From assembly GCA_021414225.1 (NCBI GenBank), contig JAIOOX010000002.1, positions 300,597-342,957 of the forward strand: 42,361 nt of DNA, written 5' to 3'. The notes beneath the pieces are model-generated. The model was not told where the DNA came from. It saw only the letters and a program-made list of their open reading frames with translations, and made no database searches. Shown here in pieces: positions 10,092 through 26,498 of this stretch (positions are counted from its first letter, which is position 1; each line of letters begins with the position of its first letter). The position numbers and the translations under genes are program-made. Source of the DNA: Candidatus Vogelbacteria bacterium. Lineage in GTDB: Bacteria > Patescibacteriota > Minisyncoccia > Phycocordibacterales > XYD1-FULL-46-19.

Positions 10092-10097
10092 ACGAAG

Positions 10098-10129
10098 ATT
10101 ATCCTAACATGTTTTCTTTATTTGGTCAT
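10098..10129 (-). promoter_or_regulatory. frr promoter, leaderless or nearly so
   Basis: ATGACC (10129-10124), 17-bp spacer, TAGGAT (10106-10101); an overlapping GATAAT (10103-10098) is a better -10 match, with 20-bp spacing. The start is predicted at, or 2-3 bases before, the ATG at 10091. Confidence 0.55.
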
Positions 10130-10142
10130 TATAAAAAAAGAA

Positions 10143-10175
10143 AATAGGCAGGTGACCATGAGTCACCTGCCTATT
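10143..10175 (-). terminator. Terminator of the 10196-10807 gene
   Basis: A 14-bp perfect stem (10143-10156 with 10162-10175, 5-base loop). In the minus direction it is followed by a T-rich tail (10142-10131, broken by a single C). It lies 20 bases after the stop codon. Confidence 0.9.
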
Positions 10176-10195
10176 AGAAACTTTTCATCCCCCTG

Positions 10196-22375: not shown

Positions 22376-23188
22376 ATGAACTTCACCTTTTTTGGAACTG
22401 ACGAATTTAGCGTTAAAGCTTTAAACACATTGAAACAGCGTGGCTTTTTGCCGAGTCTAATCATAACTACACCAGACAAACCACAAGGGCGAAAAATGGT
22501 TTTAACTCCCCCGCCGGTTAAAGTGTGGGCCTCCGAAAATAATATTGATTTTATGCAGCCACCTAAATTAAAAGATTTCCAATTCCCTAATGGTGATTGG
22601 GATGTCTTCATCGTAGCTTCTTATGGCAAAATTATTCCCCAAACTATTTTAGATACTCCTAAATTTGGGACACTCAATATCCACCCCTCACTTCTACCTA
22701 AGTTTCGCGGGGCTACGCCCTTGGAATCAGCTATTTTATCTGACGACACGGAAACCGGTGTAACCATTATCATTCTAGATGCCGAAATGGACCATGGACC
22801 CATTGTCGCTCAAACTAAAACTCTATTATCTAATAAATTTTATGTAGAACTCCGGGATGAATTGGCTGAAACTGGTGCCAATCTAGTGGCTAATATTTTG
22901 CCTGATTTTATAACTGGCCAAATTATTCCTACCGATCAAGATCACACTCAAGCAACTTTCACCAAAAAAATCACCAAAGAAGACGGGCTGATCAATTTGA
23001 ATGATGACCCAATTACAAACTTCCACAAAATTCGCGCTTTCACTCCGTGGCCGAGTGCTTATTTCTTTGATACTAGAGATGGAAAAAATGTTCGTACTAT
23101 AATCAAAAAGGCCCACCTCGATGGTGAGTCCTTAGTCGTTGACCGGGTTGTACCTGAAGGTAAATCCGAGATGAATTGGAAAAGCTGA
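22376..23188 (+). CDS. fmt: Methionyl-tRNA formyltransferase, short form
   Basis: Fmt formylates the initiator Met-tRNA. The N-terminal Rossmann domain begins MNFTFFGTDEFSVKAL, and the catalytic block is present as LNIHPSLLPKFRGATPLESA with the later aspartate (DAEMDHGPI). The C-terminal OB domain is reduced: the protein has 270 residues against about 315 in E. coli and ends soon after VVPEGKSEM. The methionine start codes directly after a -10 element, so the mRNA is probably leaderless. It functions together with def, encoded about 0.8 kb upstream. Confidence 0.95.
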   Translation: MNFTFFGTDEFSVKALNTLKQRGFLPSLIITTPDKPQGRKMVLTPPPVKVWASENNIDFMQPPKLKDFQFPNGDWDVFIVASYGKIIPQTILDTPKFGTLNIHPSLLPKFRGATPLESAILSDDTETGVTIIILDAEMDHGPIVAQTKTLLSNKFYVELRDELAETGANLVANILPDFITGQIIPTDQDHTQATFTKKITKEDGLINLNDDPITNFHKIRAFTPWPSAYFFDTRDGKNVRTIIKKAHLDGESLVVDRVVPEGKSEMNWKS

Positions 23189-23192
23189 AAAC

Positions 23193-23221
23193 TTGACTTT
23201 AATCAACCAAAAAGCAAGAAT
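23193..23221 (+). promoter_or_regulatory. Candidate promoter of the structured RNA
   Basis: TTGACT (23193-23198), 17-bp spacer, AAGAAT (23216-23221, four of six matches). It lies just after the fmt stop and predicts a start near A23228. Confidence 0.4.
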
Positions 23222-23227
23222 TAATTT

Positions 23228-23434
23228 ACCTTTGGTTCCCAGCCGCCAGAGCAGTTAGTATCGAGAGAGAAAGTCTTTCTCTCTGTGCTAGAGGTATAAC
23301 CTCTCGTTGCGCACATGATTGGCGCCGAAGCAAAAGCCTTCTAGTATCTGAGAGTATCGGCATCTAGAGATCAACGTTGCCGAAAAAGGTTGGTTTGTCC
23401 AGGAGTCACAGAGATGTGGCACCTGGGCATTTTT
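23228..23434 (+). ncRNA. Candidate structured non-coding RNA, about 205 nt
   Basis: No credible reading frame occupies 23189-23572. The first half is dense in inverted repeats: ACCTTT/AAAGGT closing 23228-23233 with 23385-23390; a hairpin of about 7-8 bp in 23266-23286 (GAGAGAAA..TTTCTCTC); AGAGGT-ATA-ACCTCT (23290-23304); GCCGA/TCGGC; and TCTAG/CTAGA. It ends in a terminator hairpin (23397-23428) with a GAGA tetraloop, followed by ATTTTTAT. A weak promoter sits at the expected distance upstream. Size would suit 6S-like RNAs, but I found no hallmark of 6S, tmRNA, RNase P or SRP RNA. Exact ends are inferred. Confidence 0.45.
23397..23434 (+). terminator. Plus-strand terminator after the candidate RNA
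   Basis: The stem GTCCAGG/CCTGGGC (one G-U pair) continues through an A-A mismatch into GTCACA/TGTGGC (one G-U pair) around a GAGA tetraloop. It is followed by five T at 23430-23434. Confidence 0.7.
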
Positions 23435-23469
23435 ATACACAGAACTTTCCTGTGTGGAAGAAAAACAAA

Positions 23470-23566
23470 GTCTCGCCAGTAATTTTGTAATATTGTGCAG
23501 ACGGTCAGCCGAGCATGGCAATTTACAAACAAGCAAATATGCGCATTCCAAAATTATTGGCGAGAC
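23470..23566 (-). terminator. Long-loop terminator after ppiA
   Basis: An 18-base inverted repeat (23470-23487 with 23549-23566, one mismatch) encloses 61 bases. In the minus direction it starts seven bases after the ppiA stop and is followed by TTTGTTTTTC, so it reads as a terminator with an oversized loop. The loop contains small palindromes (CGG-TCAG-CCG; ATGCGCAT). Confidence 0.6.
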
Positions 23567-23572
23567 GAAGTT

Positions 23573-24259
23573 TTACTTTATCTCAATCTTTTCAATCTTC
23601 ACATCCTCAAGCGGATGATCATTTTCATTAGTTTTGACAGCAATAATTTTATTAACGACATCCATACCGGCAACAACTTTGCCAAACACGGTGTGTTTAG
23701 GATTCAAAAAACTATTATCGGCCACGTTTATAAAGAACTGAGAACCATTGGTATTTGGTCCAGCATTAGCCATAGAGATCGTTCCTATCGCATTACTATT
23801 CGTTGGTCCAATCTCGTCAGCAAATTTGTAACCTGGACCACCAGTGCCATGGATACCCCAATTCTTTGGCTCGGCTTTGGTCAACGGATCCCCACCCTGG
23901 ACCATAAAGTTAGGGATCACTCGGTGAAATAGTGTGCCATCATAAAAACCAGCTTGGGCTAGCTTCAAAAAATTAGCTACTGTATTTGGAGTTTTGTCGG
24001 CAAATAATTCCAATTTTATTACTCCCACACTTGTGGTCATAGTCACCACTGGTTGAGAATTAGTTTGAGCACCCGCCGACATTGTTTGACTCTGATTATC
24101 AGGCACACTCGGTGTTGATGATGAAAATAAATCTGTCATGTTAATAGTTGAAGTAGCTATAGTATTAATAGTAACCGGTTTAGTTTGAGTTATAAAAACA
24201 CCCAAACCAAGCACCACTAGGACTGTGGCGACAATCGCCCAAAGAGTATAATTATTCAT
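23573..24259 (-). CDS. ppiA: Cyclophilin-type peptidyl-prolyl isomerase, membrane-anchored
   Basis: A cis-trans prolyl isomerase that assists protein folding outside the membrane. An N-terminal hydrophobic segment (about residues 7-26) anchors or exports the protein, followed by a Ser/Thr/Gln-rich linker (about 30-70). The cyclophilin domain (about 75-228) contains FHRVIPNFMVQGGDP with the catalytic arginine, GTISMANAGPNTNGSQFFI and NPKHTVFGKVVAGMDVV. It follows hpf by two bases and is the last gene of that pair. The symbol is used in the generic cyclophilin sense. Confidence 0.92.
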   Translation of the reverse strand: MNNYTLWAIVATVLVVLGLGVFITQTKPVTINTIATSTINMTDLFSSSTPSVPDNQSQTMSAGAQTNSQPVVTMTTSVGVIKLELFADKTPNTVANFLKLAQAGFYDGTLFHRVIPNFMVQGGDPLTKAEPKNWGIHGTGGPGYKFADEIGPTNSNAIGTISMANAGPNTNGSQFFINVADNSFLNPKHTVFGKVVAGMDVVNKIIAVKTNENDHPLEDVKIEKIEIK

Positions 24260-24633: not shown

Positions 24634-24684
24634 AATAAGATATTAATTAGGCTAATAAATAACGACTTTTTATTTCTCTCTTAC

Positions 24685-24712
24685 ATTATAACCCCGACTT
24701 AGTCAGTTTCAA
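24685..24712 (-). promoter_or_regulatory. hpf-ppiA promoter
   Basis: TTGAAA (24712-24707), 16-bp spacer, TATAAT (24690-24685). The -35 overlaps the stop codon of the DUF167 gene. Predicted leader about 45 bases. Confidence 0.75.
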
Positions 24713-24948
24713 ACCTTGACCTCTAACATCTTATTTGGTCTATGGTGACCAGAGATGATTTTGACTTGTTTCGGTAAAACTTGATAGTACTCAGCCACCA
24801 TAACCACAACTCTTAGGTTGGCTAGGTTATTTTCAGCTGGCTCTTTAACCGACAAAACTAGACTATCCGGTTGGAGGATAGCTAGTTTTTGTCGATGAGA
24901 CCCTGGTATAACTTTAACCTTAACAAACAAAGTGTTAGATAGTTTCAA
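24709..24948 (-). CDS. DUF167 (YggU-type) family protein
   Basis: A small protein of up to 79 residues with the DUF167 signature: FVKVKVIPGSHRQKL at the start, then LVLSVKEPAENNLANLRVV (usually 'PAxxGKAN') and a KIISGHHRPNK segment (usually 'SGxxSRxK'). The family is widespread with no settled function. TTG codons at 24948 and 24930 are both possible starts; the second gives the usual family beginning and a four-base gap from the pyk stop, while the first overlaps pyk by 14 bases. It should be co-transcribed with pyk. Confidence 0.8.
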   Translation of the reverse strand: MKLSNTLFVKVKVIPGSHRQKLAILQPDSLVLSVKEPAENNLANLRVVVMVAEYYQVLPKQVKIISGHHRPNKMLEVKV

Positions 24949-26341: not shown

Positions 26342-26393
26342 AGATATATTTGAACAAAAAAATATTGCCTAAAGGCAGTTGTTAATGAAAGTG

Positions 26394-26422
26394 ATTATAC
26401 AGAATAAGCTTATAAATTACAA
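26394..26422 (-). promoter_or_regulatory. pyk promoter
   Basis: TTGTAA (26422-26417), 17-bp spacer, TATAAT (26399-26394). Predicted leader about 46 bases, ending before the pyk ATG at 26341. Confidence 0.65.
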
Positions 26423-26431
26423 TCTAAACAA

Positions 26432-26468
26432 CAAAGACCGCTCTCTAGATAATTAGGAGCGGTCTTTG
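26432..26468 (-). terminator. Terminator after the SIMPL-domain gene
   Basis: A 12-bp perfect stem (26432-26443 with 26457-26468, 13-base loop) about 30 bases after the stop at 26499. It is followed in the minus direction by TTGTTTAG; its other side also has a T-rich flank. Confidence 0.8.
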
Positions 26469-26498
26469 TTTTAAAACTTGAAGTTAAGTTTTGGAGAT

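Follow-up and report, generated by a model that had tools for sequence, protein, structure and literature searches.

Orphan small RNAs encoded in bacterial intergenic regions are the described elements that most resemble the stretch of about 205 nt reported here, which lies between a methionyl-tRNA formyltransferase gene (fmt) and a peptidyl-prolyl isomerase (PPIase) gene. Like them, it is intergenic, non-coding and confined to one lineage, measures about 200 nt, and carries a promoter-like match and a strong terminator; it differs in being known from sequence alone, in belonging to a genome in which Hfq was not found, and in having a body that mostly folds at a near-chance level. The 3′ untranslated region (UTR) of a bacterial operon, closed by an intrinsic terminator, offers a second comparison: the stretch lies on the same strand as fmt, directly after its stop codon, and its terminator can serve the priA-def-fmt genes, although its length and GC content would be unusual in this genome. 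With the genes for tmRNA (RF00023), RNase P RNA (RF00010), SRP RNA (RF00169/RF01854) and 6S RNA (RF00013) it shares a raised GC content in a low-GC genome but, unlike them, it has neither a covariance-model match nor conservation in relatives. Our leading reading, held at a probability of roughly 0.45, is that this lineage-specific stretch is transcribed as an orphan small RNA.

The genome spans 689 kb in five contigs and is 99.6% complete; the window, by which we mean the whole 42-kb stretch of DNA analysed, has a GC content of 40%. The gene upstream of the candidate (22376–23188, plus strand) is the 3′-most of the priA-def-fmt string, and we take it to be fmt from its protein sequence; its closest relatives are from Parcubacteria, e.g., Candidatus Vogelbacteria (57% identity). 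It converges on a PPIase-like gene of the minus strand (23573–24259, stop at 23573), with a 384-bp intergenic region between the two, and both genes were assigned as open reading frames (ORFs) with synteny in sister loci. On the far side of this pair, the gap between hpf and the pyruvate kinase gene (24634–24934, minus strand) holds an apparent small ORF, below the ORF size cut-off, that looks DUF167/YggU-like by eye.

Within the intergenic region, the GC content jumps from 22% over the first 40 bases (23189–23228) to 49% over the candidate RNA body (23229–23394, plus strand), for which several alternative folds are predicted. This value is close to that of the RNase P RNA of the same genome (48%); about 5.6% of all 166-nt windows in the 42-kb stretch are equally GC-rich, few of them intergenic. 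A sequence-only reading had seen no credible coding frame here, and indeed there is none on either strand, the longest ORF within the stretch being an 87-aa TTG frame on the minus strand. The block has a weak internal repeat, TAGTATC(T)GAGAG, in two copies; the repeat was noticed post hoc, 15–19 of 500 shuffles were equally good, and an internal repeated module was rejected as too weak. The composition bears on a realistic alternative, namely that the stretch is a long 3′ UTR of the priA-def-fmt transcript, with an ordinary intrinsic terminator and a GC-rich body that is functionless by itself. A GC-rich 3′ UTR of 200 nt would be unusual in this genome, in which the other intergenic stretches listed have 20–44% GC.

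At the 3′ end, an intrinsic terminator with a stem of 8+6 bp, a GAGA loop and a T run occupies 23396–23434 on the plus strand (stem-loop 23396–23429). It is very strong, with a pairing probability of 0.96–0.99, a 40-nt z-score of about −6 and ATTTTTATA directly after it. The GAGA tetraloop and T run described earlier are thus borne out, and the intrinsic terminator looked for in an independent small RNA gene is present. Because the fmt operon needs a terminator anyway, this is no proof of a separate gene, and the same structure would also close the priA-def-fmt transcript. The terminator is distinct from a 34-nt inverted repeat, absent from the sequence-only reading, at 23458–23578 on the minus strand (arms 23458–23491/23545–23578, 82% complementary, 53-nt loop), in a region (23440–23580) with a z-score of −4.7. 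On the minus strand, TTTGTTTTTCTT comes next, and the repeat, whose loop is enlarged, probably terminates the PPIase-hpf genes, so that each of the converging transcripts would own a separate stop. Very stable intergenic terminator hairpins, with stems of about 15–23 bp, were seen at 1102–1285, 10092–10195 and 26342–26498 of the window; these beat the candidate body in folding.

Upstream of the body, a scan revealed a weak sigma-70-like match, TTGACT-17-AAGAAT (23193–23221, plus strand; 9/12), that would place a transcription start near 23228. The match has the correct spacing for the candidate promoter proposed earlier, but it lacks discriminating power, as chance matches are equally good: the 801 bp scanned contain five matches of 9–10/12 versus 1.1 expected, the other four lying inside genes or on the opposite strand. 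The weakness of the match favors the 3′ UTR alternative. Transcription may start near 23228 from this promoter, or it may arrive by read-through from fmt.

Folded as a whole, the region has a z-score of −4.35 to −4.6 against shuffles. This value (about −4.4) is owed mainly to the terminator (about −6) and to hairpin A (23256–23290, plus strand; about −4), the sole clearly non-random hairpin of the body. By itself, the body reaches −2.07, with 8 of 200 shuffles as good, and the portion 3′ of hairpin A (23292–23394) reaches −0.55. Hairpin A has a probability of 0.7–0.9 when the transcript starts at 23228 and of about 0.2 when it starts at 23189. Indeed, the predicted structures change between these two starts, the latter favoring an 8-bp helix, 23201–23208/23388–23395, with a probability of 0.62–0.86. 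The fold is not unique, as the minimum-energy structure accounts for 0.4% of the ensemble, which is diffuse (mean positional entropy of 0.87 in the body versus 0.15 in the terminator). Of the architecture proposed from the sequence, with at least five nested hairpins inside a closing helix, the stable hairpin A survives; the hairpins lie mostly side by side rather than nested, in a diffuse fold. The two strands of the closing helix, ACCTTT (23228–23233) and AAAGGT (23385–23390), are present, but they pair with a probability of 0.001 with the 23189 start, 0.02 with the 23228 start, and 0.045 once the terminator is removed.

For scale, the RNase P RNA of this genome has a z-score of −11, and three tmRNAs of relatives range from −3.1 to −6.8. 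When 1018 windows of 166 nt were scanned across the 42-kb stretch, about 24 outscored the candidate, and several of those that were folded proved to be intergenic terminator hairpins; the best window containing the entire terminator (start 23324) ranked 25th. Both this ranking and the restriction of non-random folding to the terminator and one hairpin argue for a 3′ UTR.

The stretch matches no known RNA family. Over the window, on both strands, Rfam gave no relevant match at curated (gathering) thresholds, nothing relevant appeared at E ≤ 10 on either strand of 22900–23700, and ARAGORN made no tmRNA call in the region. Nevertheless, a very divergent tmRNA, SRP RNA, 6S RNA or RNase P RNA had been entertained, a reading that could draw on the failure of Rfam models to find SRP or 6S RNA in this genome or 16 relatives and on the lack of a tmRNA hit in this genome. 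We consider it extremely improbable. In the region, covariance models and ARAGORN identified no tmRNA, and the respective models identified no RNase P RNA and, in both the small and large bacterial versions, no SRP RNA. The RNase P RNA of the genome is located elsewhere (G000:C2:47231-47676, 130 bits), and none of the relatives searched has a similar sequence, whereas a housekeeping RNA, like RNase P RNA, would be expected in sister genera too. With the small and large SRP models, all 17 genomes (this one and 16 relatives) came up empty, but the searches also missed B. subtilis among their controls, which makes this weak evidence; their silence in these Parcubacteria-like genomes may reflect search sensitivity or real divergence. 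The 6S RNA model found none in the same 17 genomes and none in the region, where the predicted folds are multi-hairpin rather than a single long hairpin with a central bubble.

As for tmRNA, it is present in 16 of 16 relatives (78 bits or more cited), and these 16 also have SmpB. Neither was found in this genome, nor was infC, the search for which had no positive control here. In three of the four relatives whose neighborhood was read, smpB adjoins infC and rplT, and smpB and ssrA are adjacent in relatives. Because tmRNA, smpB and infC are absent together and are neighbors in relatives, a single assembly gap is the likely cause, and it likely accounts for the three better than a tmRNA hidden in the window. 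The idea of a divergent tmRNA placed here for want of one in the genome was thus dropped, given that its smpB and infC neighbors are absent too.

By sequence comparison with sister genera, the block is peculiar to this lineage. In blastn searches, 60 relatives returned nothing beyond matches of chance length (the best, over 20 nt, with E 0.017), and the hits in phages and plasmids were likewise short and attributable to chance; as a sensitivity control, the genome's own RNase P RNA was detected in 14 of 15 relatives (E < 1e-5). No second copy of the block was found in its own genome, and an exact pattern search of viral contigs found none. A single-sequence covariance model retrieved only the block itself from 38 fmt loci and from 297 genomes of the order, the latter with a sensitivity limited by stricter filters and by the single sequence; a 16-bit match in one genome (E 0.16) was taken as chance. 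Absence of the stems from relatives had been named beforehand as grounds for rejecting a structured RNA, and at the sister-genus level they are indeed not conserved. No homologue emerged among 60 (blastn) or 297 (covariance model) genomes, and hence none with the compensatory changes that would mark a conserved structured RNA class. Folding statistics and conservation together give little support to a new structured RNA, and that proposal is mostly not supported. That these Parcubacteria-like bacteria have a genus-specific class of structured regulatory RNA, Hfq-independent and as yet outside Rfam, is unlikely. The lack of conservation in the body also suits the 3′ UTR alternative.

The genes around the block are conserved. 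In 36 sister loci, priA-def-fmt converges on (PPIase)-hpf in the same order, with a gap of 32 to about 1080 bases 3′ of fmt, and none of the sister loci tested carries the block. In the best-matching one, L063, the block is missing and a terminator hairpin sets in at the fmt stop itself, which speaks against a long 3′ UTR. A conserved junction with a block absent from the sister loci tested would also befit a remnant, whether decayed or inserted (a pseudogene, a mobile element or a duplicated module), that ends by chance in the operon terminator, and the weak TAGTATC(T)GAGAG repeat could be counted in its favor. However, that repeat is post hoc and marginal, phages, plasmids and the 60 relatives yield short chance matches only, and the genome has no second copy; such an origin is therefore unlikely. 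An ancestral terminator common to this locus and L063, both of which contain a short CTCGCCA inverted repeat, was rejected owing to an unconvincing local alignment, and the idea that the convergent junction marks a skew switch at the replication terminus was rejected because the GC skew keeps its sign. In another sister locus (L065 4900–5220, Candidatus Vogelbacteria RIFOXYB1_FULL_42_16), the fmt/hpf junction contains a palindrome of about 260–300 bases, within which lies a second long inverted repeat.

An orphan small RNA, our leading reading, is favored by the rise in GC content, the terminator, hairpin A, the promoter-like match and the lack of a coding frame, as well as by the separate opposite-strand terminator and a sister junction that is kept in the absence of the block. 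Against it stand the marginal fold of the body, the weak promoter match, the lack of a homologue, and the failure to find Hfq. A transcript that ends at the terminator (23396–23434) is likely, and transcription would stop at 23434. If the RNA is functional, its most probable mode of action, tentatively, would be antisense pairing through unpaired segments, e.g., UUCCCAGCCGCC, without Hfq. Of all this, the sequence gives good support to the terminator alone, and the start site, function and independent transcription of the RNA are inferred. Thus, of the suggestion that the stretch is something new, the possible orphan small RNA without a family match stands, whereas the claim of structure mostly does not. 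Overall, an orphan transcript is plausible but unproven, either as a lineage-specific small RNA or as a long fmt 3′ UTR with its terminator.

In the literature, no dedicated small-RNA study of this streamlined lineage turned up. If the small RNA is real, it would be an orphan example from such a lineage, without raising a new question by itself. The analysis is mainly of value for what it says about this locus and genome: the apparent structure downstream of fmt is mostly a terminator and one hairpin, and the missing tmRNA is probably an assembly gap.
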